Source: Bacteroidia bacterium
Lineage (GTDB): Bacteria > Bacteroidota > Bacteroidia > Bacteroidales > Prolixibacteraceae
Direction: 5' to 3'
Length of the DNA stretch: 64,000 nt
Assembly (NCBI GenBank): GCA_026391315.1
Contig: JAPLDT010000023.1
Location: 1 to 64,000 of the forward strand
Below the pieces are notes generated by a model that saw only the letters and a program-made list of their open reading frames with translations, ran no database searches and was not told the DNA's origin. Positions 15,667 through 53,557 of this stretch are shown in pieces. Every line of letters starts with the position of its first letter. Positions within the stretch are counted from its first letter, which is position 1. Made by a program: the position numbers and the translations under genes.

Positions 15667-18600
15667 TCACTGCAACAGCGTAAACCTAAAGCTCACGCCA
15701 ATGTTCGAATTGGTTGTCCGGTAGGCATTCGAAATGTATGGATTGTTCACAATCCTGTCGTAAAACAGCCGGACGATGAAAATTTCGCTCAGATTATAGT
15801 CTGCCGAGAATTTTATTGACAGGGCATCTTGTCCGGCTGTTAGTTGGGTATTGGTTTCCACCAGTTTGCGCAAAACAGTTTTGTTCTTGCCGTAGGTAAC
15901 ATCGGCCCTGATGTTGAGGTCGTTGTTCAGCGCTTTTGAAGAGCTTTTTGTCTTGATGAAGAGTTTCATATTTTCAAACCTATACCCCAGTCCCAGACTG
16001 GCTTCGTTGTTGTACATCTCCGTAGCCTGGTTGTTGGTAAGACTGAGGGTAATGTTACGCGATTTCCTGTACTCAAAACGGGTCGTAAAGTTGTTGAGCC
16101 AGGTAATATCCACGTCAAACAGCGGATTAAAGGCTTCGGTGATGTTAATGGCGGTGATGTCACGTTGCGGCAAAAAATTGTTTTGTGCATCCCGGATATA
16201 GCTAAAACCATCGTCAGTTGTCTGGTATTTCATGTTGGAGAGATAGGAACCAACGTTGTAGGTGGAACGGTAGTCGTGGATAATATTCATCGATTTCATT
16301 ATGTTTTTCAGTCCATCAATTTTGCTGACGGCGCCTGAATATTGAATTTTCCAGTTGGGCAGCATAAATCTGGCAGATGGGAACGGTGTGAGTTCCACGC
16401 TGTTTGCGCTTTTCCCGGTGTAGGCGGCAAAGAAAGCGGGGATCAATACCTCCTGCGAAGTAGGACCATAACCTACCGGGAAACTGGTGTTCGGATCAAT
16501 AATTCCGGGCTGGTAGTTTAGGCCCGGATTGGCTATTCGGCCGGCATCCAATCGTTGGGCAATGATTCTTCTGTTGGCCTGAAGGTCGTTCCATCCTTTG
16601 GAATCCTGAACAAAGGCTTTCCCCAGTTTCTCGAACGAGCTGCCAATGGTAATAATAGACATGCTGAAGTTTCCGTTGAAGGAGCTGTTGTAAGCGTCCC
16701 ATCCATTGGTAGCATTGTAGATAAAAAATTCGGAGGAGTTTTTAGCAAAGATCCTGTTGGCATTCAGCTCAATTTTCAAATCAGGGATTGGAACGATTTT
16801 GGCACGAAGATTGAGCCGGGAGTTGTGGCTCATCTGGTATGGTTTGTTGACGATGGTATCGGTGGTGATCCAGCGTTTGTTGGCGGCCTCAAGACCAAAC
16901 CCCTCATTTTGACGTCCAAGAATAAATGGCAAACCGGGGGCAAGGGAGGAACCACTGCCTCCCGAATAGTTGTTTAGGCCGAAGAAGCTACTTCCCGGCA
17001 GGTAACCGAAAAGGGAAGTTCCTCCATTCTCGGAATAGGAGATATTGACATTGTACAACATCATCAGAAACCTGGATGTAATCTCGCCGAAATTAATTTT
17101 AGGAGCAGCATCCTTATCTTTTTTGGAGGTGATCTCAACTAATGCTCCATCATAGTCGGCTATTGGCGTAAAAATTATCCTGTTATCATTTACGACCTTA
17201 ACCTGGCCTGAGATGGGTTTGCCGCTTTTGTCGGCAATTTTAACCTGAACGGAGGATGATCCCAGTTTGTGGAAGAAGGAGTAAGGCGCATTCTTTTTGA
17301 GTTTCAGATTCTGTTCTGTATATTTTTGGGCAGGTGCAGGGTTTTGTTGACCCGAATATCTTTGGCGGTTGTTCTCCTGACTCTCCCTTCTTCCTCTGCT
17401 GAATTCACCATATTTTTGATTCACACGTCTTAGATAAGGTACTTTGTTGTACAATTGCAAAAAGTCAAGCTGGCCATTCAATTGGATCGAATTCATGTTG
17501 CTGATGGAGTTGCCCAATTGATAATCACCCCGCGTAACAGGAGCAAGATTCCAATCATAACCTGCCTGATAAACGGCAGAAGCGGAAGTCCACTCCAGTA
17601 GAGGTATTTTATTGATTGGCAGGGTATAAGTGGCATTCCAGGTATGGTGGTAATGGGTATTTTTACCCCCATCCAATATAGATCTCCAGATCGAATCGCG
17701 TCTCAACTCATAGCTCCCCTGGTTTTGGGTATTGAGTTTCGACGGGTCGCCGATCCGGGAGGCATTGACAGCAGAAAAATCAAGTTTGAGGCTTCTGGTC
17801 AGGTCAAACCGCAAATCATAATAACGATTCCAGGTGAAATTATTCTGGTGCGAGACAGGTAGAATAAAATCAGGATTGGTAATATTCCGGTACTGCAATT
17901 CACTCTGCATGTCGTTCATATCTGACCGAAATGATACTTGAGCCGGGGTTAAACTGAAATTGAAATCCCTGAACAACGTCAGCGATTTAGGTTTCAAAAA
18001 AGAGAGATTTTTAAATGGATCAATGGATATAGGCCTGCTGTTAAAGTGATAATTCAACAACGTACGTGAGTTGGTAGTTCTTTCAGTAAGGGTGTTGACA
18101 TCCCCATGCTGGAATAGGTTGTAGGAGTAAGAGAGTGAAAGATTGGAAACATCGTAGAACTTTTTTTCGCCGGTTTTACCTGGTTTGTCAATCTGAACAT
18201 TGGTAAAGTTGATACTTTTCCGGGTATTGAAGGTAAGCGACATTTTCTTGATGGAGTCCCGTTCCGATTTTGTAGCAGCATTAGCAAGAATGTCAGAAAG
18301 CTTAACATCCTTATCGACAGGCGAGTATTCAGGCGTAGCTACTGATTTTGAAAAGCTCATGTACATAGGAATCTTTACTCCTGATTCGGGTTTGAAGAAT
18401 TTTCCCAATTCGAGATTTGTCGAAATATCATATTCGCGGGTATCCTCTTTCGACCGGGTCGACATTTTTGAGTCGATGTCACCGAATCCGGAGGTCATCC
18501 ATCTTCCTGCAAAGGAGTAAGTACCCAGGTCGGCAAGGTTTCCGGATACCCGGCCAATGGCCGCCCAGCCTCCGTTCTCCTCAAAATTGGTCAACCGCAG

Positions 18601-21600
18601 TTCGTTTACCCAAACCTCTGCCGAACGACTTCCGGTAGTATGACCTTTTCTGTTGCCAACGCCAATCATCATGACACTGATCTCGGACAGATCAGGGTTT
18701 CCCTTAATTTTTATCTTATTCTGGTTGCTGTTAACGCCCCGGTGTATCTGTTCAAAAATATCCCCCATCCCTATGGTTGAGCCGGTTGCATGCATCTCTG
18801 AGTTGCGATCCAGCTTCAGTTGTGGCAGCAGGTCCAACGGAATATAGACCCTGTTTTCTGTCGGCCAGACGATGTATCGATCGCTCTCTTTCCCATTGTC
18901 ATAATAGCCAGGCGGGGTCAGTTTTAGCGGTATTTCATATTCGTAGTAGTTGTACTGAAAATCCGAACCCACCCGGATGAAGAGGGATAGCTCATTATCC
19001 CGCAAAGGCATCCCATCCAGCTTTTCGGCATGGACTTCCAGTTTCAGGTTCTTGTATCGCCGCAAATCAACCGAAGTCGTTTTGTAGGCAGCCTTTGCCT
19101 CCCCCGGTTCGACATCCATAATTTTCATTACCATGGATTGCTCATTTAACTGGCGTAGTTGCGCATTGGCCGGATCGATTACCCTGTCGACCCCCGGAGG
19201 CAATACATAATTGACAGGTTTCCGGTTGCTGTTTTCCTCTATATTGACAGCCGACAGGTCGAATTGGGTTGAAACTGAAGATGGGCTTCCATCGGGATTG
19301 AGGGTTTTGTCGTATCTTCTCCAGTTGGTGCGCACCAGGTCGAGTGTGGCAAACCGCAGAACGACTGGCTTTTTCCAGCCGTTTACCAACATTCTCATAA
19401 ATCGGATCGATCTAAAGTCGTTGATGGCACCATAAGCTTTATCTGGTTCGGTGATAGGAACTTTAAACTGATACCAGGTGATATCAGATTTTTTCCCGCT
19501 TTTGAGTGTAACTTCAGATTTCTTAATGTCCGTGATGTAATTTTTTCCCAAAACCATGTTGGCCCTGTCGATCTTCAACTTGTACTGGAAATAGGCCTCA
19601 TTCTCGTTGAGGGTATTGTCATCATTGATGTCCTCCACATCAGGTATTGACGTTGCCGCAGTTGGATAACTTTCTGTCGATTGTTCGGTTGTGGGTGAAT
19701 TGCCTTCAGTGTTGCTGTAGAATTTGTATCGTTCGAGGAGATCTTTTTTCTCCTGGTCATAGTCACTTCCCCTAAAGTAATGAAAATCATCGCTGGAGGG
19801 ATCCTTCTCAACTTTTGCCATGGCTGTGGCATCGACGAGGGGAAGCAGAGAGGCTAAAAACTGTTTGTAAAAGGTTCTTTCATCTTTCGAATTGAGCCCG
19901 TCCAGACCAATATCCTGGAAGATCCTTGCCTGTGGCGAATTGTCGAAGGCTTTTACCAGCGACTGTTGCCTTGAAACCCTTCCCCAGGTGGTGATATCCA
20001 GATTGGTATAATCCCCGTTGGCCGGCAGACCATGCTCAAAAGATTTTCTTCCATCGCGGAGAATATCTTCGGAAACGCTCCCCAGATGAAAAACAAGGTT
20101 TCCCCCAGGGTTCTCATCACCTGCCTTGTCTTCGGCAAAAGGATCCATCATCCAGAATTCAATGTACTCCACGTTGGTGGCTTCAAAATCGCTGGTTTCA
20201 ATTTTACGCATGATCCCGCCCCACCGGCTTTCCGGACGCAAAAGTGAGCCATCCTTAGCGACTCCGGATGAGAGCGCCGTTGGATAGGTGTCAAAATTGT
20301 AGGGCCCTCTTTCAGTAGGATAGAAAGCCAGGTCCAGGGTAGGGATATTGGTTGGCTGTCCAATCGGATTCTGCCGGTTGGGAAAAATTTCAGACTGAAA
20401 TACCTCCCTGACACGATGGTCATCTAATTTCTCGCCCTGAAGCAGGTATGATGGAGCCGTATTCCGCTGCATGAACGGATCAATCACATACCACGAGAGC
20501 AATGCCCTGTTGTATCCATATGTAAGGTCATTGATCAGATCCCCTTCCGGGAATTGCTCGTTCCCCTGGGGAGTACTTGCCAATGACCAGCCGGTAAAGG
20601 ATTTCAGGTTGATGGGTGTGGTAGTGCCTTCAAAGTCATCCAGATAGACAGCGCCCTCTTTTGATATTGCCCTCGAATGTCCGGGAAACAACTTTGCCCA
20701 CTCCATTTCAACGGCAATTTTCGATTCCTCTTTGGTATTGATGAATGGCAAAGCATTCACCATCTTGGTAATAAAGGGGGATGAGGCGCTGTACGAACCA
20801 TTGAAGCCAAGCATGGTATTGGCAATCGGGTCTTCGCCATAATTGACCTTCTGGGTTAGCGGTTTCTCAAGGAGATACATGACCGTAGAGCCGATGTTGA
20901 AATTCTTGCTGATCTCGTAGTTCAGATGGGTTCCCAGCATGGTCTTGCGCTGCATGCTGAAAAGGTCCTGACTCTCAGTAGAGATAGAAATTGGGGTACC
21001 CGATTCCAGCAAACCCTGGTTGATCACCTTCACCCGACCCTGGGTATAGTCGACGATAAAATCCACATCTTCCTGAAGTTGTCTGCCACCGGCCATAACT
21101 TTTACGGATCCCCTGGCAATGTTGATGGCATCCAATGAGATTTCCGAATTGGAAAGGCCCTTGTAACTTCCTTTCAAATGGTACTTGTTTTTTTCCGCAT
21201 CCTGCTCCGCGACCGTCCGGGTATTGTTGTAGAGCGAAGAATAGACATATCTCTTGATGGCAGCAGCGTCACCATTGAATTTCTTCTCCAGGTTCGAGCC
21301 AAATGGCTGAACAACCGGAAAGATGATCCTTCCCTTTTGGGCATCAATGGTGATACGGTCAACAAAGTCAAAAACGCCATCCGGGTATGGGTCATGCTGA
21401 CTGTTCAGGTTATCCAGGTTCATCACTGCCAGCAGATTTTTCTCCTTTAACGGACCATCCGGAAGGTAATTAAGGTCAGTTCCGGAGGCATCATTCCGGT
21501 AGAGTACATCGAGTTTAAACTCTTCATTCGAAATTCTCTGGGAACGAATGTTGTAGATGTTTTTCATCATCAAGTCCCAGTTTTTGAAAATGGGATTGAG

Positions 21601-22386
21601 ATTTGTTCCTTTCAACAACTTAAGGACGAGTGTATTTGGCGCCTCAATGCCATCGGTTGAAAATTCCCCTACCTGGAAAGTCTCCCCATTGGCAGTGTAC
21701 TGATAGGCAACTGCCAGAATTTCGTCGGCATTGAGTGCCATGTTGAGGGAGATATACCCAAGTTGCTTATTGATAGTGTATTCGGTAGAATCGAGCCGTC
21801 TGGCATTTTCGATCTTTTCATAGTCGCGACCTGCAATGAAATCCCTTGCCGACAGGGGTTTAAGAACTTCATTCAGTTTTGAAATATCACGGATGTTTGA
21901 ATAATTGGTGGTTAGCGTTTTGTAAACACCGTTGATATTGTTATTAGGAAGCTGGTTATAGGGATAGAGCAACCCTGGTGTATCGCCAAATTCTGAAATG
22001 GTTTGATTTTGCCTGTTTTGTCCGTTCTCTCCTAAATCGAGCAGTGCAAGAATGTTGCGGGATTCCTGAAAATGGCTCGATTTATTGGTCACCCAAACCT
22101 CTACTTTATTGAGAGTGACGGAGGTTTTCAGGATGGGAATTTCAGAAAGTGCCTGGTCGTAAGTATTGTAAAAATGATGTGCAAGAAAGAAGTTTCTGTT
22201 GGCATCGTAGTTGGTGGCATTGATTTCAAATTTTGTACGCTCTGCGCCACCTTCCGTGTTGATGACCTTGGTTTCTCCTTTTTGCTGGGAAAAGAGGGTG
22301 CTAACCGAAAGTTTTCCGAATTGAAGTTCTGTCTTGACTCCGAAGAGGTTGGTTCCACCTCGGATAAGTGTTCCGGTAAGCGGCAT
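15667..22386 (-). CDS. sprA: SprA/Sov, type IX secretion outer-membrane translocon - main C-terminal piece of a broken gene
   Basis: 2239 aa. SprA is the giant (about 2400-2500 aa) beta-barrel channel of the type IX secretion system. This piece begins in the conserved block GNVSMPLTGTLIRGG and LFGVKTELQFGKL and keeps the rest of the family to the C-terminus (FIVRLFYDRIVNNPYIS, GVSFRFTLLQ). The natural start is missing: the N-terminal part lies in two other frames upstream (22301-23054). It is the third gene after pdxA and ruvA, the usual place for sprA in Bacteroidota. The ATG at 22384-22386 is only an internal methionine; without signal peptide the product would not be exported. Confidence 0.9.
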   Translation of the reverse strand: MPLTGTLIRGGTNLFGVKTELQFGKLSVSTLFSQQKGETKVINTEGGAERTKFEINATNYDANRNFFLAHHFYNTYDQALSEIPILKTSVTLNKVEVWVTNKSSHFQESRNILALLDLGENGQNRQNQTISEFGDTPGLLYPYNQLPNNNINGVYKTLTTNYSNIRDISKLNEVLKPLSARDFIAGRDYEKIENARRLDSTEYTINKQLGYISLNMALNADEILAVAYQYTANGETFQVGEFSTDGIEAPNTLVLKLLKGTNLNPIFKNWDLMMKNIYNIRSQRISNEEFKLDVLYRNDASGTDLNYLPDGPLKEKNLLAVMNLDNLNSQHDPYPDGVFDFVDRITIDAQKGRIIFPVVQPFGSNLEKKFNGDAAAIKRYVYSSLYNNTRTVAEQDAEKNKYHLKGSYKGLSNSEISLDAINIARGSVKVMAGGRQLQEDVDFIVDYTQGRVKVINQGLLESGTPISISTESQDLFSMQRKTMLGTHLNYEISKNFNIGSTVMYLLEKPLTQKVNYGEDPIANTMLGFNGSYSASSPFITKMVNALPFINTKEESKIAVEMEWAKLFPGHSRAISKEGAVYLDDFEGTTTPINLKSFTGWSLASTPQGNEQFPEGDLINDLTYGYNRALLSWYVIDPFMQRNTAPSYLLQGEKLDDHRVREVFQSEIFPNRQNPIGQPTNIPTLDLAFYPTERGPYNFDTYPTALSSGVAKDGSLLRPESRWGGIMRKIETSDFEATNVEYIEFWMMDPFAEDKAGDENPGGNLVFHLGSVSEDILRDGRKSFEHGLPANGDYTNLDITTWGRVSRQQSLVKAFDNSPQARIFQDIGLDGLNSKDERTFYKQFLASLLPLVDATAMAKVEKDPSSDDFHYFRGSDYDQEKKDLLERYKFYSNTEGNSPTTEQSTESYPTAATSIPDVEDINDDNTLNENEAYFQYKLKIDRANMVLGKNYITDIKKSEVTLKSGKKSDITWYQFKVPITEPDKAYGAINDFRSIRFMRMLVNGWKKPVVLRFATLDLVRTNWRRYDKTLNPDGSPSSVSTQFDLSAVNIEENSNRKPVNYVLPPGVDRVIDPANAQLRQLNEQSMVMKIMDVEPGEAKAAYKTTSVDLRRYKNLKLEVHAEKLDGMPLRDNELSLFIRVGSDFQYNYYEYEIPLKLTPPGYYDNGKESDRYIVWPTENRVYIPLDLLPQLKLDRNSEMHATGSTIGMGDIFEQIHRGVNSNQNKIKIKGNPDLSEISVMMIGVGNRKGHTTGSRSAEVWVNELRLTNFEENGGWAAIGRVSGNLADLGTYSFAGRWMTSGFGDIDSKMSTRSKEDTREYDISTNLELGKFFKPESGVKIPMYMSFSKSVATPEYSPVDKDVKLSDILANAATKSERDSIKKMSLTFNTRKSINFTNVQIDKPGKTGEKKFYDVSNLSLSYSYNLFQHGDVNTLTERTTNSRTLLNYHFNSRPISIDPFKNLSFLKPKSLTLFRDFNFSLTPAQVSFRSDMNDMQSELQYRNITNPDFILPVSHQNNFTWNRYYDLRFDLTRSLKLDFSAVNASRIGDPSKLNTQNQGSYELRRDSIWRSILDGGKNTHYHHTWNATYTLPINKIPLLEWTSASAVYQAGYDWNLAPVTRGDYQLGNSISNMNSIQLNGQLDFLQLYNKVPYLRRVNQKYGEFSRGRRESQENNRQRYSGQQNPAPAQKYTEQNLKLKKNAPYSFFHKLGSSSVQVKIADKSGKPISGQVKVVNDNRIIFTPIADYDGALVEITSKKDKDAAPKINFGEITSRFLMMLYNVNISYSENGGTSLFGYLPGSSFFGLNNYSGGSGSSLAPGLPFILGRQNEGFGLEAANKRWITTDTIVNKPYQMSHNSRLNLRAKIVPIPDLKIELNANRIFAKNSSEFFIYNATNGWDAYNSSFNGNFSMSIITIGSSFEKLGKAFVQDSKGWNDLQANRRIIAQRLDAGRIANPGLNYQPGIIDPNTSFPVGYGPTSQEVLIPAFFAAYTGKSANSVELTPFPSARFMLPNWKIQYSGAVSKIDGLKNIMKSMNIIHDYRSTYNVGSYLSNMKYQTTDDGFSYIRDAQNNFLPQRDITAINITEAFNPLFDVDITWLNNFTTRFEYRKSRNITLSLTNNQATEMYNNEASLGLGYRFENMKLFIKTKSSSKALNNDLNIRADVTYGKNKTVLRKLVETNTQLTAGQDALSIKFSADYNLSEIFIVRLFYDRIVNNPYISNAYRTTNSNIGVSFRFTLLQ

Positions 22387-42570: not shown

Positions 42571-45500
42571 ATGTTGTGTTCAAAATTAAGAAGGTCGGCC
42601 CATCTGATCTTTTCTATCATACTTGCATTTTGTCGGATTGAAAACGATATCTGCAAACGACAATTTTTTTGGGAGAAATCTCCTGAAAAGGTTGTTTCCC
42701 TGTTGGTCAAATATTGTATTCTCATCGCTCCATTTTTTTTACTTTCGGTATCAGTTCAGGATTCTTATGCAGGCAAATTTGATGTTTACCCACCCGAACA
42801 TTTCCTTGAAATAAAAAGCACCCTACCTGAGAATGCGGGAAATGGATTGTCGCTGACATTGACGGTTACAAATGTCACATGTTTCGGAGGGAACAACGGA
42901 TCTATATCCTCCAATCTTTCGGGTGGTTCAGGAGGAACTGTCAACTATACCCTTACTCCGGGATCGGTAACAAATACAACCGGAGTATTTCCCAATCTTA
43001 TTGCAGCTGCATATACTGTTCTGGCTGATGATGGCGGAACTACAATAAGTGCTTCCGTCAATGTTACCGAACCACCGGTGACATCCTTACCATCCATTAC
43101 GTTGGGTGCTTTCCCTGTTTATTGTCCGGGGGTCCCAAATTTTTTGCTGAACTACATTTCAACCAGCGGAACTCCGATATCCTACAGTCTGTCTGCCGGA
43201 GTGCCGGCTATGCCCGGTTTTGTTTCTTTGGTGAATGCAGCCTTGGGTGCAAGCCCGTTGACCATTTCGCTGCCAGCAGGTGTTAACAAGGGAAGCTATC
43301 AATTCATTTTGACAGTAAAGAATGCAACTGGTTGTACATCAACAGTACAAACTTTCAGTATGAATTTTGATGATACTACAAAGCCAGTTTTTACGGCCCC
43401 CAGTGATATAACCATTTTCAATGATCCTACCGGTAACATTAATGTTTTACCTGCAGTTACAGGTAATGTAGTTATACTCTCAGATAACTGTACCGCTGTA
43501 TCCAACCTAATAACAACCTATTCTGATGGTGCTCCCGTTCCGATTGGTGGAGGCTGCAATTTACCCTATACCATTACCCGTACGTGGAAGGTTACCGATG
43601 CTGCCGGTAATTTTGAAGTTAAAACACAGCTTATAACGGTAAAGGATAATATTAAACCAAATCTGACCACTCCCCCTGATCTAACACTTAGTTGTGAACA
43701 GAGTATTTTGCCTGCTTCTACCGGTACTGCAACAGCGACAGATAATAGTAGCCCAACGACTATAACCTTTGTCGATAATGTATTAAGCGGAACTTGTAGC
43801 GGTAACAATACCATCTCACGAACTTGGACAGCCACCGATTGCAGTGGAAATACCACATCCGGAATCCAGACAATTATTGTATCAGATAATACCAAGCCAG
43901 TTGCAACAGTACCAAATATATCGGTTGGTTGTCCGGCGGATATTCCTGTCCCTTATGCAACTTTGGCTCAGTTCATTACTGCCGGAGGAACAGCAACTGA
44001 CAATTGCGGAGCTTTGTCCTTAATCCTTTTTAGTGAAATAGCCAACGGATTGGCAGGGAAGCCTGGTTATTGTCCGACAAGCGTTACACGCGTTTACAGA
44101 ATTTCGGATCCTTGCGGAAACTATACAGACGTTGTTCAAACTATTTCAGTACAGGGGGAATGTGGTTGTTCCAAATGTGTTACCGGTACGAATTTCCATT
44201 TGGTGGATTTTCTCGGACAACCAACCGGTTCGATAGAATTTGACGATCAAAAGAGAAATGGTGCCTGTTGTGTAGATGCGAATTGTATCTCTTTTAATGT
44301 CAGGCTGGATCCGAATGCCATTGGTGTCGAAATTCTTGTTGAGGGGGCAACGCCATCTCCGCAGGATTGGAGAATTGATTGTGTCAGTGTTACAATCACC
44401 GGAAATACAATTTGTATGCCTACAGGGTCCTTTCACCTGTTTACCTATTGTAAACCGGGGGCAAACAAAAATGAATTTAGCTTTCGTTCGATACCTGGCG
44501 TAATTGTTCCTGGAAATATAACAACAAGGGTCGATTGTAACAGTCAGATAACTGCAACAGGGATTCAAAGCAACCCCGTTTGGAATAGTATCTCTCCTGG
44601 TTCCAAGGGTCAGTACAACTCTTATCTCTCAAGTACAACTGTTGCTAATCCTTTCTTTGTTGCCGATGTAAATTCTCCCCCTGTTATTCAATATGAAGTA
44701 TGTGGTAATATTGGTACAACAGTCTGTAATGCACTTGGTACAGATTGTGCGGTTGCCACAGTTTACGTCAAACAAAAGATAGGTTTGGTCTGGAATACCG
44801 ATCCTTCCCTCGTATGTCTTGGCAATATGCCCACGCTTACTGCAAACATATCCCCTGCCGGAAGTTATTCTTACAACTGGTACAACGGCCATGGGGCTAC
44901 TGGAGCAGTTATTTACAGCGGTTCGGCGAGTTATAAGCCCTCAGCGGTTGGCCCTTACTCCCTAACAGTGACAGATATTCTTAGTGGAGGTGCCTGTAAC
45001 ACTGCCGTATTTGATTTTGATGTCGCGGTCGACAATGTAGGTCCCTCTCTACTTGCTCCACCATCACCCTTGTCTATTCAATGCGGGGATCCTGCAGCAA
45101 ATCAACAAATTACAAATTGGTTGGCAAGTGCTACTACAACTTATACCAAACCCGATGGGACAGTGGTAAATGTAGTTCCAACCAATAATTATAGTGGTAT
45201 TACAATGGCCTGTAATTCCAGTGTAGACGTAACATTTTCAGCTTCAGATCAGTGCGGGAATGTCAGTAGTATCACTTCAAAAATTAATGTCATAGATACT
45301 CAGCCTCCGGTATTTACCTCTTGTCCGGCCAACCTAACAATAAATACCGATGCTGGAAAATGTTATGCTACGGGTGTCTCATTTGGTGTAGCATCCGTTA
45401 CTGATTGTTCAAGTGTAACCGTCACAAACAATGCACCTGCTCAGTTGCCTACTGGAGTAAATTTGGTTACCTGGACAGCTACTGATGCTTGTGGCAACAA

Positions 45501-47121
45501 AACGACCTGCACCCAAACAGTAACAGTGAAAGACAATATCAGTCCTGTTATATCCTGTCCGGCCAATGTAACCCAAACTGCCCTACCGGGAAATTGTTCC
45601 TTATCCAATGTTACCATTCCAGCTCCGGTTTCATCTGATAATTGTTCGGTAATAACCCAGAAATGGACGATGAGTGGCGCAACAGTAGGAAGTAGTCCGG
45701 CAACGGGTATCAACGATGTAAGCGGCCAAACATTCAATGTGGGTATCACAACAGTTAGCTATACAGTTGTGGATGGTGCAGGGAATACGACCAGTTGCTC
45801 TTTCAACGTTTGGATCAAAGACTTGAACAAACCGGTTGTGACCTCCGGTTGTCCTGCGGATGTAACCAAGATGAATGATCCGGGTCTGTGCTCAGCAGTA
45901 GTGAGCATTCCCAAGCTGGTTGTGAGTGATCCATGTAACGAAGGATATACGGTAAAAAACAGCTTTAACAATACGGATGATGCCTCCGGTATTTATCCTG
46001 TTGGAGTAACCACTGTCAATTGGACCATCACCGATGCATCAGGGAATAGCACTTTCTGCATACAGAAAATTACCATCAATGACAAAAATCCAAGTCTGTC
46101 ATGCACGGCAAATATTACTGTGAATGCTGATTTTGAGAAAACGTTTGCTTCCAATGTGGCCATTGCAACTCCTGTTTATGGAGATGATTGTCCGGGCTTA
46201 TCCCTTATCTGGAATATGACAGGTGCATCAACCGGGAGTTCGCCGGCTACCGGAGTAAATATTTTTCCAACACCATCGCTCTTTAATCTTGGAATAACCA
46301 CCATTCAATATACTGCGACAGATGCCAGCGGGCACACTGCAATTTGCTCCTTCACGGTAACTGTTTTGACAAAGCCCGACATTAACTGTCAGCCCAATAT
46401 TACGAAGAATAATGACCCAAGCCTTTGCTCAGCGGCTTTTGATCCTGGATTTCCTGTTAAGTTATCGGGAGCTGATCCAATAACCTATAGCTGGTCCATG
46501 ACAGGTGCAACCCCTGCTTCGGGCACAGCATCCGGCACTGGATCAATCATACCGATTCCTTATACCTTTAACGTTGGTGCTACCATCATAACCTGGACGG
46601 CGACCAATGTTTCAGGATCGGATATGTGCAGCCAGACTGTTACAGTGGTTGACAAAGATCCCCCTGTATTTAATGCTCCAAGCCCTTTTAGTTTTTGTGT
46701 GGTGAATATTATTACGGCAGCCATGGTTTCAAGTGCCCTGAAAATTAATCCTGCCCCTGATTACTATCTATTCAAAAGTGGGAGTACAGTACTTGATGTT
46801 AATCCTGCCACCTTCTCAGACAATTGCACGCCTGTAAATCAATTGGTACTTCACTGGCAAATCGATTTCTCCGCCACTACACCAGCCCCTTCTATTTCAG
46901 GAACCGGACAGCCTTCTGCTTATCCAAGCGACATTGTTTTCCCGGGGGATGGGATCACGTTTATGGATGTAACACATACAATCACCTATTGGGTAGTCGA
47001 TCTGAACGGTAATGAGTCTGTTCATAAAACGGTCCCAATCACCATTCATCCCAGACCGGCAGTTTCCGAAATCAGGTGTCCATCTTTCCTTAATTACATT
47101 GATCCCAAACTAAGAAGCTAA
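42571..47121 (+). CDS. Large secreted adhesin-like protein with SprB-like and HYR repeats (cassette 1, gene A)
   Basis: 1516 aa. A hydrophobic export signal (YCILIAPFFLLSVSV) lies at about 47-61, later than usual, so the true start may be internal. A SprB-type repeat (VTCFGGNNGSISSNL) is near 78-150. HYR/Ig-like modules begin near 268, 358, 439, 820, 908, 988, 1084, 1170, 1265 and 1361. Recurrent motifs are D-x-x-x-P-x-x-x-CPA-x-V, SSPATG and TTV-x-YTV-x-DA-x-GN. A cysteine-rich non-repeat section spans about 528-816. The last module ends HPRPAVSEI and is shared with the gene at 52364-53557. No CHU_C tail is present. The likely role is cell-surface adhesion or matrix; this is inferred from domains. 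Confidence 0.85.
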   Translation: MLCSKLRRSAHLIFSIILAFCRIENDICKRQFFWEKSPEKVVSLLVKYCILIAPFFLLSVSVQDSYAGKFDVYPPEHFLEIKSTLPENAGNGLSLTLTVTNVTCFGGNNGSISSNLSGGSGGTVNYTLTPGSVTNTTGVFPNLIAAAYTVLADDGGTTISASVNVTEPPVTSLPSITLGAFPVYCPGVPNFLLNYISTSGTPISYSLSAGVPAMPGFVSLVNAALGASPLTISLPAGVNKGSYQFILTVKNATGCTSTVQTFSMNFDDTTKPVFTAPSDITIFNDPTGNINVLPAVTGNVVILSDNCTAVSNLITTYSDGAPVPIGGGCNLPYTITRTWKVTDAAGNFEVKTQLITVKDNIKPNLTTPPDLTLSCEQSILPASTGTATATDNSSPTTITFVDNVLSGTCSGNNTISRTWTATDCSGNTTSGIQTIIVSDNTKPVATVPNISVGCPADIPVPYATLAQFITAGGTATDNCGALSLILFSEIANGLAGKPGYCPTSVTRVYRISDPCGNYTDVVQTISVQGECGCSKCVTGTNFHLVDFLGQPTGSIEFDDQKRNGACCVDANCISFNVRLDPNAIGVEILVEGATPSPQDWRIDCVSVTITGNTICMPTGSFHLFTYCKPGANKNEFSFRSIPGVIVPGNITTRVDCNSQITATGIQSNPVWNSISPGSKGQYNSYLSSTTVANPFFVADVNSPPVIQYEVCGNIGTTVCNALGTDCAVATVYVKQKIGLVWNTDPSLVCLGNMPTLTANISPAGSYSYNWYNGHGATGAVIYSGSASYKPSAVGPYSLTVTDILSGGACNTAVFDFDVAVDNVGPSLLAPPSPLSIQCGDPAANQQITNWLASATTTYTKPDGTVVNVVPTNNYSGITMACNSSVDVTFSASDQCGNVSSITSKINVIDTQPPVFTSCPANLTINTDAGKCYATGVSFGVASVTDCSSVTVTNNAPAQLPTGVNLVTWTATDACGNKTTCTQTVTVKDNISPVISCPANVTQTALPGNCSLSNVTIPAPVSSDNCSVITQKWTMSGATVGSSPATGINDVSGQTFNVGITTVSYTVVDGAGNTTSCSFNVWIKDLNKPVVTSGCPADVTKMNDPGLCSAVVSIPKLVVSDPCNEGYTVKNSFNNTDDASGIYPVGVTTVNWTITDASGNSTFCIQKITINDKNPSLSCTANITVNADFEKTFASNVAIATPVYGDDCPGLSLIWNMTGASTGSSPATGVNIFPTPSLFNLGITTIQYTATDASGHTAICSFTVTVLTKPDINCQPNITKNNDPSLCSAAFDPGFPVKLSGADPITYSWSMTGATPASGTASGTGSIIPIPYTFNVGATIITWTATNVSGSDMCSQTVTVVDKDPPVFNAPSPFSFCVVNIITAAMVSSALKINPAPDYYLFKSGSTVLDVNPATFSDNCTPVNQLVLHWQIDFSATTPAPSISGTGQPSAYPSDIVFPGDGITFMDVTHTITYWVVDLNGNESVHKTVPITIHPRPAVSEIRCPSFLNYIDPKLRS

Positions 47122-47257
47122 AGTTATGAAGCGAACATTACTTAAAAAGGTTGTAATCGGTGCGATTTTAAAAATGCGATCTATCCAAATTTCTAAAAAA
47201 TGGCCAGAAAGGCCAATTTCTATAATTAATTTTTATTCTCCCTTAAATTTTTATTTT

Positions 47258-48331
47258 ATGAAACAATTGATTCTTTTGGTGTTGTTAACCGGGATGGTTG
47301 CAACATCTGCGTTTGGTCAAGCTACCACCGGATCTGCTCCCCGACCAATTACTTGTACCGATGATCCATTGCACCCGATGGCCGGTAAACCTTACGATTA
47401 TTCGGCTATCCTGGCTCCAGCAGCAGGTTCCACTTATTGGTATGCAACTAAATCGACTACTTTTGTCACTGCCGGAGCTCGGGTTGCAACTGAAATTCTG
47501 ACGAGTGCTACAACGATTCTGAGCACAGCAACCAATTACCGTATTGCAGGAGCGGCTGCAACTTCACCCACGAAAACCAAAGTAACATGGGCTTCTGAGG
47601 TTCTAAAAGGGGTCGATGCTACCAATCCGCTTTTTATGGTTCTTGAATACACAGGGAGTGGAACCCCCTCCTGTTCGAACAACATGAAAGTGTATCAGAT
47701 TTTACCAAAAAATGCTTTTACGGTAGACATTTTGAATCTCAATAACTCCACCAAGGCTCCCCTGGCTTACGGAACGACCGATACCCAGTGTTATGCAGAC
47801 ATCGCCTCAGCAAAATATGATGCACCATCCAGCAAGATGGTCTTTGATTATGGCATCAACAAGCTTTATTTTGAGGTGGTAGCAGCCAATTTCACAGGAT
47901 CATTTACCCCCTCTTATAAACTGACAGGTTTAAAAACAGGCCAGTCGGCTTTGGTTGAATGGACAACTGACAAAACTCTTGCTTCTGGTTTAACTGCATT
48001 AGGTGCAGCACAAACTGCAACTACTGGTGCAACTTTAAGCTTTACAGGAACGGCTGTTACTCCTGATCCACTTGTTACTGACATGACCAAAGGGGTTTCA
48101 ATATACATAAGGGTAACTGTAACAAATGGTCTTTATGAAGGTTTGACGAATGACGCCGTAACATTATCAGTAGAAGCAGTCAATATTAACAACGAACCCG
48201 ATATCGACAATGCTACCTGTGCTGCTCCGGCATCGACTTACGAAGATACCGCTGTTCAAACACTTAACATGCGTCCAACAGTCACCAATGATCCAGCAAC
48301 AGGAGCATTCGTCGTTCAGACATTGCCCTAG
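47258..48331 (+). CDS. Secreted protein of unnamed family (cassette 1, gene B)
   Basis: 357 aa from MKQLILLVLLTGMVATSAFG (ATG at 47258-47260), which gives a clean signal peptide. A longer frame from 47126 would put 44 charged residues before it, so it was rejected. Not recognised as a named domain. Its paralogue at 51198-52277 shares C-x-D-x-PLHP-x-AGK-x-Y-x-YS and NAFT-x-D. It also shares DYG-x-N-x-L-x-F and YEG-x-T-x-x-x-VTLS, and both end RPT-x-T-x-x and then LP. No sorting tail. Position between an adhesin and a CHU_C protein suggests a shared surface structure. Confidence 0.85.
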   Translation: MKQLILLVLLTGMVATSAFGQATTGSAPRPITCTDDPLHPMAGKPYDYSAILAPAAGSTYWYATKSTTFVTAGARVATEILTSATTILSTATNYRIAGAAATSPTKTKVTWASEVLKGVDATNPLFMVLEYTGSGTPSCSNNMKVYQILPKNAFTVDILNLNNSTKAPLAYGTTDTQCYADIASAKYDAPSSKMVFDYGINKLYFEVVAANFTGSFTPSYKLTGLKTGQSALVEWTTDKTLASGLTALGAAQTATTGATLSFTGTAVTPDPLVTDMTKGVSIYIRVTVTNGLYEGLTNDAVTLSVEAVNINNEPDIDNATCAAPASTYEDTAVQTLNMRPTVTNDPATGAFVVQTLP

Positions 48332-48793
48332 TAATTTATTTCATACTTAGCCCCGGATGATAATCTACTTCATGTTTTTGAAGTATGGGGATTCTATACT
48401 CCGTCGTATCCATTTCGATACGAGGGTTACACTGTTGTCTTTTCTGACGATATAAATTGATATTTATATCACTGACTGATAGTGGATTATCTATTTGATA
48501 GATTCTCTGTCTTGTTCTGGTTTGTTTTTACAGACAATTAGGAAATAACACCATTTAATCCGATGATCATAGATCTGAAATCAGGTCATTTTCATTACCA
48601 TGGATCCCGATGTTCCGGGGTGCTCATGGGGTGTGTTTATTATGCAGGTATGTCAAATATAAATTAAAATATTATGTAAGATAAAAATAACATATAATCA
48701 ACTCCCGAATGAGGATAATAATGCTTTTGATGGAGATATAACTTGAATGAAGTCTATTTTAATAAGTTCATAATCAATGCGATATATGCATAG
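48332..48793. other. Gene-free stretch inside cassette 1
   Basis: 461 bases between genes B and C. TACTTCA (48366-48372) can pair with TGAAGTA (48379-48385), a hairpin that may end or slow transcription after gene B. The remainder is AT-rich without repeats, recognisable promoter or frame of interest. Confidence 0.5.
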
Positions 48794-50224
48794 TTGATGA
48801 AGTATTTCGCCATGTTTAGACTTTTCGTGCTTGCAATGCTGCCTGCACTGTTAGTTGCGGTTAATTCCGTGGCGCAGACGGGTATTGTCGTTGTGGAAGG
48901 TCAACAAAAGAGCCTTGCCGTGGTTCAGCATGCGGGTGAATTATATGCATGGCGAATTTACAACAAGTCAACGCTGCAAACGGCTGATCTCGCCACATCA
49001 ACGGAAGTTGAGTACAACATTGGCAGTACACAGGCAGTTTTACCTGTATTGTGGAAAAAGGAGGGAGACTTTTTCTACACAGTAACGGTATTTGGTGCCA
49101 GTGGTTGCAAAAACATGAAAGTAGGCTATGTTAAGGTTACTTCCCCACCAGTCTATGCTGTTGCAGGCAAGGATACAGTACTGGGTATTTGCAGTACTTA
49201 TATTCTGGATGCATCCAAATCGAAAGGAGATGGTTTGACCTATCGGTGGGATATGATTGACCCGGGCGGAGTCCTGACGCCGAACAACAGCGTGAAGAGT
49301 AACTTGTCGATTTCACCAACCTATTCAGGACCATTGCCATTTAGCATCCGGATCGTGCTGACTGTAACCGATAATTATGGTGTATCCGGGAGAGATACAA
49401 TAACTGTTAAATTTGGCTCACCACCGAGTGTGGGCATCATCTATCCGGATAATCCAAATAAAGATGGATCAATGATGATAGATGGCAAAGCCTCAACCGG
49501 ACAAGGGCTGAAATATCATTGGGCATCAACGAAGGGAGAGATTATTGGCTCTACTGACAAACCACAGGTATTGATCAGAGGTGCTGGATTTTACTCTTTG
49601 GAGGTTACCGATATCTTCGGGTGCAAATCAGTGAAAATGTTCCAATATCCATTCGAAACAAATAACCTTATCGCAAATGCCGATTACGTCAGGACTTCGT
49701 GGGTGGATTCCATTCACATACATGTACTTAACAATGACTTTGATTCAAGGAATGACATCAGCAAGAGTACCCTTTCGATCGTTAAGAAACCAAATTTTGG
49801 ATCGACACAGATCAAAAAAGATGGAACAATTGTCTATTCACCAAATACCAGAAAGTCATTGGTTGACCAATTTATTTACCAGATTTGTGATTCAGTCGGT
49901 CTTTGTGATACAGCCAGGGTAACAATTGACATATTCGACGGCCCTGTTTGGATTCCTGAGGCGATATCACCTAATGGAGATGGACACAACGAATATTTTG
50001 TCATCCGGGGATTGGAAGATTATAAAAATTCGAGCCTAATGATTTATACGCGTTCCGGGCTTTTGATATATAAATCAATGGATTATATGAACGATTGGTC
50101 TGGTCATGCACTGAATTCTTCGCTTCCTGATGATACTTTGTTGCCAACCGGAACCTATTATTACGTCTTTCATTTAGGTGGTACCAATCGATACCTCAAG
50201 GGGTTTGTCTATCTCATGTATTAG
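48794..50224 (+). CDS. T9SS type B (CHU_C) sorting-domain protein with PKD/Ig-like domains (cassette 1, gene C)
   Basis: 476 aa. The signal peptide is FVLAMLPALLVAVNSVAQ. A first beta domain spans about 28-115, and PKD-like domains follow about 120-290 (AVAGKDTVLGICSTYILDAS, FSIRIVLTVTDNYG). A cadherin/Ig-like domain is at about 297-383 (ANADYVRTSWVDSIHIHVLN). The C-terminal gliding-motility/CHU_C domain starts EAISPNGDGHNEYFVIRGLE and ends GGTNRYLKGFVYLMY. CHU_C tails direct export by the type IX system. The stop is only 8 bases from the stop of the convergent paralogue. Confidence 0.92.
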   Translation: MMKYFAMFRLFVLAMLPALLVAVNSVAQTGIVVVEGQQKSLAVVQHAGELYAWRIYNKSTLQTADLATSTEVEYNIGSTQAVLPVLWKKEGDFFYTVTVFGASGCKNMKVGYVKVTSPPVYAVAGKDTVLGICSTYILDASKSKGDGLTYRWDMIDPGGVLTPNNSVKSNLSISPTYSGPLPFSIRIVLTVTDNYGVSGRDTITVKFGSPPSVGIIYPDNPNKDGSMMIDGKASTGQGLKYHWASTKGEIIGSTDKPQVLIRGAGFYSLEVTDIFGCKSVKMFQYPFETNNLIANADYVRTSWVDSIHIHVLNNDFDSRNDISKSTLSIVKKPNFGSTQIKKDGTIVYSPNTRKSLVDQFIYQICDSVGLCDTARVTIDIFDGPVWIPEAISPNGDGHNEYFVIRGLEDYKNSSLMIYTRSGLLIYKSMDYMNDWSGHALNSSLPDDTLLPTGTYYYVFHLGGTNRYLKGFVYLMY

Positions 50225-50232
50225 CCGGATAC

Positions 50233-51162
50233 TTATTCGGACAGGTAGAAGAACCCCTTAATGATACGATTTGTACCCCCAAGATGAAGAAGATAGTAGT
50301 ATGTACCTGGTGGAATGGTCCGGTTATTGCCGTTTGGCCTGGAGTGCACTCCGTCCCAATCGTTTTGGTAGTCATCATTTTTATAAATTGTCACTCCGTC
50401 CCTGCTGAAAATGGTTAGGGAGGATTTTGGGTAGGATTTCAATCCGCCGATAATAAATTTGTCGTTATGTCCGTCCCCATTTGGCGAAATGCCATGTGGC
50501 AGATAGAGTGGTGGATCGGTTAAATTGATGTTAACCATAGCGGTATCACTTTGCGAACAGGAATCGCTTATCTGATAAAAGAACCTGTCGGAACCTACAC
50601 GGCTACGGAATGGAACATAAGTAATTGTCCCTGCTTTACAAAGAATGACATCCCCAAATTCGGGTCTTGTCAATATTTTCAAGCTTGAAGGATCCAGATC
50701 GTTGTTTATATCTTGATCATTTCTCAGTAAGTCGATGTTGATGCTCTGCATCCAATTGGTCGAAACATAATCATCATTTGCCAAAGGAATATGATTATCA
50801 AATATTTTGACCAAGAATATTTTACTGTTCGAGCAGCCACTTTGGTTATACCCTGTTACTTGCAGAAAGTATATGCCGGACTTTTCCCATTTTACACAGA
50901 CCGATGCATTGCATTTCGCTGAAAGATAGGTCACCTTGGCCGTCTCTCCTCCCTTCATTTGTCCGATGGATTCCATTGTTTTCCAGCAATAGGTGATGCC
51001 GGGTTCAGCTTTGATGCCAAACTGACTGGATTCCCCAACCATGAAGTGGTTAGTTATCTGAGAAACAACTATTTCCTCAAATAGCAGCAAAAGCAGCATC
51101 GCCAATCCTATGCATTTCAACAGGTCAAATTTTAACATCAAATGGTTAAACTCATTGAGCAT
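50233..51162 (-). CDS. T9SS type B (CHU_C) sorting-domain protein (cassette 2, gene C')
   Basis: 309 aa. The signal-like segment is CIGLAMLLLLLFEEIVVSQ. A short beta domain ends HIPLANDDYVSTNWMQSINI, then an Ig-like domain, then CHU_C beginning HGISPNGDGHNDKFIIGGLK and ending GGTNRIIKGFFYLSE. It is a shorter paralogue of the gene at 48794-50224, lacking the ~170-residue PKD region. It is the last gene of the minus-strand cassette; gene B' ends 35 bases upstream. Confidence 0.92.
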   Translation of the reverse strand: MLNEFNHLMLKFDLLKCIGLAMLLLLLFEEIVVSQITNHFMVGESSQFGIKAEPGITYCWKTMESIGQMKGGETAKVTYLSAKCNASVCVKWEKSGIYFLQVTGYNQSGCSNSKIFLVKIFDNHIPLANDDYVSTNWMQSINIDLLRNDQDINNDLDPSSLKILTRPEFGDVILCKAGTITYVPFRSRVGSDRFFYQISDSCSQSDTAMVNINLTDPPLYLPHGISPNGDGHNDKFIIGGLKSYPKSSLTIFSRDGVTIYKNDDYQNDWDGVHSRPNGNNRTIPPGTYYYLLHLGGTNRIIKGFFYLSE

Positions 51163-51197
51163 GGTATTTCACAGGAAGTCGCAATCAAACATGTAAC

Positions 51198-52277
51198 CTA
51201 TGGTAGGAAGGATTGAATTGGAGTTCCGGTATTGCTTGTGATGGTCGGACGTGCGAGTATGATCTGGGTAGCCACATCGTTGGTAAAATCATCTGCCAGA
51301 CAATCAGCATAGTGAACATCCTCATCACCATCATCAGTCGTACCGTTTAGGGATAAGGTAACGGGAGTATCAGTCGTTCCCTCATAATCATTGTTTTTGA
51401 TGGAGACCTTCAGATAAACAGCCACTCCGCCTTCGGTAGAACTGTTAGCCGGAGCAGGAACTTTGTTTACGGGAGACCATATATCAGAACTATTGGTAAA
51501 TAGATTGGTTCCGGTAAATGTGGTTGTTTCAGACCACTCGATTGATCCAATGGTTTGTGTTCCCGCTAGTCCTGCTATCTTCACAAAAGGCTTCCAGCCT
51601 CCTGAAAAATTTGTCGCGACAATCTTAAAAATCAGTTCATTGACTCCATAATCGTAAATCATCTTCGTTCCGTCAAAGTTTACTGAGGCGATATCTTTTG
51701 CGCACACACGATGCTCAATTGCCAGATTCGATCCGTTCAAACCAAGGTCTGTTGAACCATTAACATTGGTCAGATCCAACGTGAAGGCATTATAAGGCTC
51801 TATTTTATAAGCCCTTAAATTCATCGCCTCACAAGCGGTTCCATTGGTACCTTTGTAATGTATGACCAGAAAATAGGGCTTTGTCTTTGCGTTCAAAGCT
51901 GCTTTCCCGGTCCATTTGATCGAAATGGAATTGGTTCCTGTTGAGGTATCGTGGTAACCCGCCCCGGCATCGATAAATTCTTTGGAATTGGGAATGATGC
52001 TGGTCGTAATCAGCACCGATCCGGCAATAAATCCTGGATTATCAGTAACATACCAGTCGAAGATCTGGGGCGTGGTATAAGGGGCCGGGATGGTTACAGA
52101 ATAGGAGTAGACTTTTCCTGCTATCGGATGCAGGGGAGTGTCAGCGCATGCTGGAAGTCGGGGAATGGTCTGCGCATGCATAATAAGATTTATTCCAATC
52201 AACAGGAATAGCAATATTAAAACGATTAGGTTCAATCTTCTCAAGATTTTTCCAGATAACGGATCAAGTTCTTTCAT
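51198..52277 (-). CDS. Secreted protein of unnamed family (cassette 2, gene B')
   Basis: 359 aa. The signal peptide is LNLIVLILLFLLIGINLIMHAQ, preceded by a charged N-region. Not assigned to a named domain. It is a paralogue of gene B: CADTPLHPIAGKVYSYSV, YNAFTLDLTNVNGSTD, DIASVNFDGTKMIYDYGVNE, VATNFSGGWKPFVKIAGL, GVAVYLKVSIKNNDYEGTTD and a terminal ARPTIT...FLP. The gene is 86 bases from A' and 35 from C', so the cassette reads as an operon. Function unknown. Confidence 0.85.
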   Translation of the reverse strand: MKELDPLSGKILRRLNLIVLILLFLLIGINLIMHAQTIPRLPACADTPLHPIAGKVYSYSVTIPAPYTTPQIFDWYVTDNPGFIAGSVLITTSIIPNSKEFIDAGAGYHDTSTGTNSISIKWTGKAALNAKTKPYFLVIHYKGTNGTACEAMNLRAYKIEPYNAFTLDLTNVNGSTDLGLNGSNLAIEHRVCAKDIASVNFDGTKMIYDYGVNELIFKIVATNFSGGWKPFVKIAGLAGTQTIGSIEWSETTTFTGTNLFTNSSDIWSPVNKVPAPANSSTEGGVAVYLKVSIKNNDYEGTTDTPVTLSLNGTTDDGDEDVHYADCLADDFTNDVATQIILARPTITSNTGTPIQSFLP

Positions 52278-52363
52278 AATTAAAAAATTAATGATTAGGT
52301 ATAAATTGTACTGTATATCAATGCGTTGTAAATTTTTTATTTATTAAGGCAATACACTGCATC

Positions 52364-53557
52364 CTAAAAATCACTAACAATTTCTGGCCGCCTGGATACT
52401 ATCACATAGATCTGGTGCCTGAGTGGTTGAGGAGTTAGATTTCCTGCCTCGTCTTCAAGCCAGTAAATAATTCTACAGGAGGCTTCTCCTGCAGGATTCT
52501 GCCCGATGTCAATGTTTTCATTGTGAAGGGCGATTGGCCCAATCATATCTTCCAGCCTGGTACCTGCTTCATCCAGCAAAGGAGTAAGGGGATCTGCCAC
52601 AGCGAAAATTCCCCAATGGAGAATAAGTGTGGCATTTGGTGTTAAATTGTCTGAAAAATGAGTAGGTGAAAGATCAAACAAAGGACTCTGACCGGGGAAT
52701 CTGCAATAGTCAATTCTGTTTGGTATAATATCGGAAAGGGAGTCATTCCATTCAGCCTGCTCCAGATCCTTCTGACAAAGGGTTACATTTTGGGTATCAA
52801 GGTTTATGAAGCAGGGTGGTATGGTATCTGTAACTGGCGTTACGTAAATCCGCCTCGTGAGGGTTGAGGTTTCAGTGCATTGGTTACCATTTATTGTAGG
52901 AAATGAAACCCTGATTTTGTAGGTTCCTGAATCTGCTACTGCAATTTTGGTGAAATCCAGCTGCTCACGCTGACTTCCGGATAGGGTTGCATTGTCTGAA
53001 AGATTTCTCCAGTCACCTGATCCAAATTTTTTGATCCATTGATAGGCCAGCGGCGAATTTCCTGATGTGAGAACTTTTAACCACAGGTTCTCTCCCTGGT
53101 TTAGGGTGTAGGTTGCCACTCCGACCGGAGAAATTCCTGAAATCTGGTTTACAGTTAGAGAAGCATTCGTGGATGTCACCAGATTAATTTGATCTGAAAC
53201 CGTTACCTGGTATAAGGTTCCACTAGGAGAATCAGTGGCTGAACCAATATTGTACACCGCGAGTTTTGTCGAATCTTTTGCCCCGAAGCTGCTAAATCCC
53301 ACATCTAGCGGTCTTTTCCTTTGCCACTGGTAATGAATAGGACCGGTTCCCCCTTCAGCCACGACGGAGAAGGTTGCCTTGTTGCCTTTGCAATCAGCCT
53401 GATTTTCAGGCTGGACTTTTATGCCCAATATATTGTCAATGAAGGGCAAAGCTGATCCACGGTAGTTTTTCAATGCATTTGTTGCATTGATATCTGTTCC
53501 TGATACAAGCTTCAGTAACGGAAGAATGGCAAAGCCCATTGTTATGAATCTTAACAT
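52364..53557 (-). CDS. Secreted Ig-like protein sharing the C-terminal module of the large adhesin (cassette 2, gene A')
   Basis: 397 aa. The short signal peptide is MLRFITMGFAILPLLKLVSG. Two Ig/PKD-like domains lie at about 50-135 (ATFSVVAEGGTGPIHYQWQR) and 140-240 (NQGENLWLKVLTSGNSPLAY). The last ~150 residues (DTIPPCFINL..., THFSDNLTPNATLILHW, RIIYWLEDEAGNLTP, VIVSRRPEIVSDF) align with the final module of the 1516-aa protein. It is a condensed version of gene A without HYR repeats. No sorting tail. Confidence 0.85.
   Translation of the reverse strand: MLRFITMGFAILPLLKLVSGTDINATNALKNYRGSALPFIDNILGIKVQPENQADCKGNKATFSVVAEGGTGPIHYQWQRKRPLDVGFSSFGAKDSTKLAVYNIGSATDSPSGTLYQVTVSDQINLVTSTNASLTVNQISGISPVGVATYTLNQGENLWLKVLTSGNSPLAYQWIKKFGSGDWRNLSDNATLSGSQREQLDFTKIAVADSGTYKIRVSFPTINGNQCTETSTLTRRIYVTPVTDTIPPCFINLDTQNVTLCQKDLEQAEWNDSLSDIIPNRIDYCRFPGQSPLFDLSPTHFSDNLTPNATLILHWGIFAVADPLTPLLDEAGTRLEDMIGPIALHNENIDIGQNPAGEASCRIIYWLEDEAGNLTPQPLRHQIYVIVSRRPEIVSDF

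Follow-up and report, generated by a model that had tools for sequence, protein, structure and literature searches.

Two convergent gene cassettes in a 64,000-nucleotide stretch of a Prolixibacteraceae genome (contig JAPLDT010000023.1; hereafter the window) raise the question of whether neighbouring genes for exported proteins encode separate adhesins or parts of one surface structure held by a single anchor. All six open reading frames lie where the first-pass annotation had placed them, with A-B-C on the plus strand and A'-B'-C' on the minus strand, tail to tail and in the same internal order. A (42571-47121, plus) is a Sec-exported giant repeat protein with a SprB repeat (Pfam, 29.9 bits), HYR repeats (92.6 bits) and a Cys-rich domain. 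B is an unnamed two-domain protein with a signal peptide. Its open reading frame covers 47126-48331 (plus), and the signal peptide and the relatives indicate that 47258 (MKQLILLVLLTG...) is the most likely start rather than 47126 as annotated, which gives 47258-48331. C (48794-50224, plus) consists of an N-terminal domain that we call CN, a weak PKD match, a Big_9 domain and a CHU_C type B sorting domain of the type IX secretion system (T9SS). On the minus strand, C' (50233-51162) carries CN, Big_9 and CHU_C, B' (51198-52277) is a second member of the B family, and A' (52364-53557) combines a signal peptide with two Ig-like domains and shares the terminal module of A. A' had been taken for an Ig/HYR protein; in Pfam it bears Ig_3 domains (34.3 bits), not HYR. 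The last ~110 residues of A and A' align with 27% identity (E 1e-7), B and B' are 31% identical over 339 residues, nearly their full length (E 9e-48), and C and C' are 47% identical over 215 residues that span Big_9 and CHU_C. Thus, the proposed homology holds for each pair, and CN, which the annotation had missed, is also common to C and C' (E 2e-9). Promoter-like sites occurred at chance level only.

The gene order is conserved in relatives. We found 60 homologues of B at first and 70 later, 69 of them distinct because the loci L045 and L108 are apparently the same contig. Among the distinct B genes with upstream room, 66 of 68 are preceded by an A protein ending in the terminal module (Aend), and a CN protein follows in every one of the 64 that have 3 kb or more downstream. 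An automated scan of the 70 genes placed an Aend-ending A upstream in 65 and a CN protein downstream in 65. The five upstream misses comprise two loci with overlapping reading frames in which A is visible (L052, L054), one with 499 bp of room (L101) and two without a recognisable A (L099, L113); all five downstream misses have less than 3 kb of room. As the annotation had supposed, nearly every B homologue lies between a protein with the A module and a CN/CHU_C protein; B homologues do not occur mostly alone, the finding it had named as evidence against the trio. One of the loci without a recognisable A (L113:4944-11114, genome G017) is a variant with a 260-residue protein lacking a C-terminal sorting domain (CTD), a divergent B, a 323-residue protein, D, a CHU_C protein and PorP. 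D, present in many relatives, is a protein of ~205-243 residues that contains CN and in most cases an Ig-like domain. Across Prolixibacteraceae-like genomes and several other Bacteroidales families the genes follow the order A>B>(D)>C on a single strand; among close relatives, the records that bear a name are those of Tangfeifania and Prolixibacteraceae. In its larger form the cassette contains A, one or two B genes, D and C with CN and a type B sorting domain, often followed by PorP/SprF. Thus, the order A, B, C of the proposed trio is conserved, but the unit is often larger than three genes (D, PorP/SprF, perhaps a PorE-like protein), and the genus of the window has the short form A-B-C, twice, without D and without an adjacent PorP. 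Elsewhere in the family, six loci (L120-L125) have longer runs of CTD-less proteins, up to six, between a large repeat protein and a CN..CHU_C protein with PorP. In three of them (L122, L124, L125) a gene for ~670-714 residues follows PorP, and by position and size its product may be PorE-like.

B and Aend are both unnamed modules. Pfam and NCBIfam gave nothing convincing for B and B' of the window, an alignment of 52 B proteins (median pairwise identity 30%) matched nothing in NCBIfam or among PDB sequences, and Pfam searches with the 52 proteins gave one weak hit, in a single member. This agrees with the earlier view of B as a family without a Pfam or NCBIfam name. That B is a known pilin by sequence was rejected, as it has no PDB, Pfam or NCBIfam relatives. 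An AlphaFold model of B' on the 52 rows predicts two beta-sandwich domains (pLDDT 86.7). Its best structural neighbour is an enzyme N-terminal domain (Z 8.8), followed by the PorA N-terminal domain (Z 7.8, rmsd 3.7 over 123 residues) and the CfaE and CooA pilins (Z 6.8-7.4). For a predicted model of this common fold such matches are in the noise range, and we draw no functional inference from them.

Aend of A (46609-47118, plus) has a predicted PKD/HYR-like fold (AlphaFold pLDDT 92.2, top Z 8.5 to PKD-like structures) and belongs to no Pfam family. Its profile detects A' with 140.6 bits. The 51-row alignment had no meaningful Pfam match, and none of the 51 modules matched Pfam HYR. The Aend profile scored a median of 177 bits at 65 A termini versus a median of 3.6 and a maximum of 83 bits at 343 internal stretches. 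Because scores are high at A termini and low inside the proteins, Aend is not a generic HYR repeat, which the annotation had named as the result that would undo its grouping of A with A'. A resembles HYR/PKD repeat adhesins in its HYR repeats and in the PKD-like fold of Aend; it differs in that Aend forms a terminal subfamily of its own, restricted to B-bearing genomes. Homology between B and Aend was rejected (probability 4%). The Cys-rich domain of A, ~205 residues long (44164-44778, residues 532-736), is found again in nine or more further A proteins, has no Pfam name and could be a ligand-binding part.

B was found in 41 of 149 related genomes, in 17 of 393 genomes sampled from the order and, apart from the window's own, in none of 395 sampled across the phylum. 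Aend was present in 39 of the 149; all 39 also hold B, so that 39 of 41 B genomes hold Aend (Fisher p 7e-34). In the own genome the module occurs twice and no more, each time beside a B gene. The two B genomes without Aend are G074, in which B lies near a contig start, and G110, which has a marginal B hit only. A few Aend proteins of B-bearing genomes are not beside B; in G035 and G086 a second Aend-ending gene (L128:4092-11887, L127:11952-14281) adjoins PorP/SprF instead. Co-occurrence with SprA was discarded as evidence, as SprA is present in 144 of the 149 genomes and is therefore uninformative.

Tree comparison indicates how the cassettes were inherited. A tree of 60 B proteins does not group B with B' as sisters; it puts them in two different clades, both supported and both including proteins of genus g15. 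Because both clades include g15 members, the cassettes diverged before the genus of the window and g15, and B and B' are, judging from this tree, old paralogues. The placement of B and B' in separate clades, together with the presence of both types in a second genus, led us to reject a recent tandem duplication of one cassette. We then swapped partners 2000 times within genomes holding more than one B gene. The A-B tree correlation was 0.272 (re-paired maximum 0.268) and the A-CN correlation 0.566 (re-paired maximum 0.559), and neither was reached in any of the 2000 swaps. The B-CN signal is weaker, its observed correlation being reached in 15 of 2000. Thus, the cassettes appear to be inherited as units. 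It could be argued that each is simply an operon of co-regulated, physically separate surface or periplasmic proteins, which occur together because their regulation and ecology are shared. There are operons of unrelated adhesins, 463 bp separate B from C in the window, and contact between A, B and C is hypothetical. On the other hand, two otherwise undescribed modules co-occur in 39 of 39 genomes, and gene order is fixed, inheritance is by unit and tails and CTDs are distributed in a complementary way (see below). We consider this explanation unlikely.

Only C and C' carry recognisable sorting signals. The type B domains lie at 49952-50215 in C (plus, 84.6 bits) and at 50242-50502 in C' (minus, 81.4 bits). 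Pfam CHU_C gave 84 and 78 bits, Big_9 matched in both, and TIGR04131 scored 40.4 bits for C and 44.9 for C' at a cut-off of 35, as for type B substrates. Neither TIGR04131 nor TIGR04183 matched A or B, consistent with the annotation, which had assigned a sorting tail to C and signal peptides only to A and B. The translocon gene sprA/sov is in the window as well, outside the cassettes (15667-22386, minus; SprA_N 596 bits). It sits ~25 kb from them, and in several g1 and g15 genomes sprA is within about 12-30 kb of a B gene, which may reflect conserved linkage or shared synteny. PorP-like barrels anchor type B proteins (PMC9143113, PMC12618676). A cognate porP/sprF directly downstream is common but not obligatory, and several relatives have one directly downstream of C. 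The cassettes of the window are convergent and have none adjacent; the own genome has five PorP_SprF genes elsewhere, the nearest on the contig ~75 kb away. As neither the window nor its genus has a PorP/SprF gene next to the cassettes, C and C' would count as orphan substrates of type B.

The cassettes can be compared with the known T9SS type B adhesins that have a PorP/SprF shuttle (SprB-SprF, PG1035-PorP, Fjoh_3952-Fjoh_3951). They share CHU_C/TIGR04131 in C and C' and, in relatives, PorP/SprF directly downstream; they differ in the genus of the window by a short CTD protein, conserved tailed CTD-less partners ahead of it and a PorP that is not adjacent. In the sprC-sprD-sprB-sprF gliding operon of Flavobacterium johnsoniae, a CTD-bearing adhesin and SprF are encoded with other motility genes, and this combination with partner genes is likewise similar. 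It is conceivable that the cassettes are ordinary type B adhesin loci of this kind with fast-evolving accessory proteins, as C is a type B substrate, PorP/SprF adjoins it in relatives, A has a SprB repeat and sprA is on the same contig. We regard this as very unlikely, because the sampled genomes outside Bacteroidales held no B homologue and 20 type B loci of other families had, by inspection, no comparable tail-bearing neighbours, a comparison that covered sequences other than SprC and SprD. Neighbours of the other CHU_C loci in the own genome (L048-L051) also lack tails of the cassette kind. One of these loci (L050:1911-14619) has three CHU_C proteins on one strand and a convergent PorP/SprF gene, unrelated to A and B.

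The CTD-less proteins end in short proline-containing tails. In the window these are HPRPAVSEI... of A (47044-47118, plus), RPTVTNDPATGAFVVQTLP of B (48272-48328, plus), RPTITSNTGTPIQSFLP of B' (51201-51251, minus) and RRPEIVSDF of A' (52367-52393, minus). Such tails occur in 59 of 65 A, 64 of 70 B (R-P or P-x-P) and 28 of 32 D proteins, versus 2 of 41 C proteins and 23 of 472 other reading frames, although these counts are not independent, as the pattern was defined after examples had been seen and family members share tails by descent. A P-x4-I tail is found in 27 of 32 D proteins and in all 21 CTD-less proteins of L120-L125, many of which have CN. A further caveat is that, where Ig domains border, a proline often follows the final strand. 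CN lies at 48872-49144 in C (plus) and at 50797-51063 in C' (minus), matching profile A5 with 3e-24 and 1.7e-23. It is N-terminal on D and C, and CN-like domains are present on B, D and C, not on A. A type B domain (CHU_C/TIGR04131) closes nearly every complete C protein. In A, B and D no recognised sorting domain of type A or type B was detected, except in two of 32 proteins at the D position, which match type A. One of these, in L109, combines CN with a type A domain above the cut-off (TIGR04183, 28.7 bits). In L046 the end of the C protein matches type A weakly, at 17.2 bits and below the cut-off, and C of L045 has no such match. Apparently, the type of sorting domain on the CN protein was exchanged in two lineages (L109 and L046).

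From this distribution we propose that the products of a cassette assemble into one surface appendage of several subunits, a chain A>B>(D)>C for which C would be the anchor and probably the means of export. The reading follows the distribution of parts, because A has a tail without CN, B and D have both, and C has CN and a sorting domain. A would be the distal, adhesive repeat protein, whose C-terminal module and proline tail would dock on B. B, and D where present, would be adaptors that receive the preceding tail in a CN-like N-terminal domain and bind CN of the next protein with their own tail. At the base, C would accept the final tail with its CN, the proposed acceptor, and by means of its type B sorting domain it would pass through SprA and be retained at a PorP/SprF barrel. 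The subunits without a CTD would either travel to the surface attached to C or attach to it there. Conserved gene set and order, the near-obligate co-occurrence of Aend and B, the distribution of domains and tails and the exchange of sorting domains suggest such a chain, a multi-part fibre on one anchor rather than three separate adhesins. There are also points against it. CN is not specific to the chain, as it is detected in 60 genomes versus 41 with B. The match of the first domain of B to the D profile (95% probability) covers just 40 columns. The tail of A (PRPxIIK) is spaced differently from P-x4-I, and A of the window runs ~18 residues beyond its PRP. We put the proposal a little short of an even chance. 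The tail-to-CN contact, the export route, the order of assembly and the adhesive function are all inferred. A more specific version is only tentative and rather doubtful: an order-encoded heteropolymer fibre, in which every subunit without a CTD would offer its strand-like C-terminal tail to the N-terminal domain of the product that follows, and the last protein, the only one with a sorting domain, would be the sole T9SS substrate, exporting or anchoring all.

The same tails could be read in another way. A, B and D might each be exported by T9SS independently, without a chain, if the conserved module or tail at the C-terminus served as a sorting signal not yet described. The tails are at the extreme C-terminus like known CTDs, tails of D such as IYPNPTNSRIY resemble the start of type A CTDs, and in the L109 protein this position is taken by a full type A CTD; moreover, CTD types have been added before (type C, PMC10202324). 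Independent export seems improbable all the same, since the tails have 6-20 residues versus ~70-100 in the folded domains of known CTDs, the domains preceding them differ among A, B and D, and the restriction of the A module to B genomes is left unexplained. The shared-anchor chain is the best-supported of the candidate mechanisms. The proposed appendage recalls the type V (FimA/Mfa1) pili of Bacteroidales, which are multi-subunit appendages of beta-sandwich proteins. In FimA pili a C-terminal strand is reported as donor (PMC5954841), an analogy only for the cassette tails. The systems differ in that type V pilins are lipoproteins processed by Rgp, while A, B and D have no lipobox by eye (in B, no Cys at the likely signal cleavage site) and no fimbrillin Pfam match, for B in 52 proteins. 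The anchor also differs, being a T9SS CTD protein in the cassettes.

In summary, the cassette is real and conserved, is of the T9SS type B kind, contains two unnamed modules and is undescribed as far as our searches show. These modules, B and Aend, are now defined and co-occur almost perfectly, and a direct test of their interaction is easy to set up. T9SS export is understood to require a C-terminal sorting domain on each cargo. If the chain is true, one CTD protein would serve several CTD-less partners, which would amount to a carried-passenger or outside-assembly route for T9SS, and the order of subunits would be readable from the order of genes.
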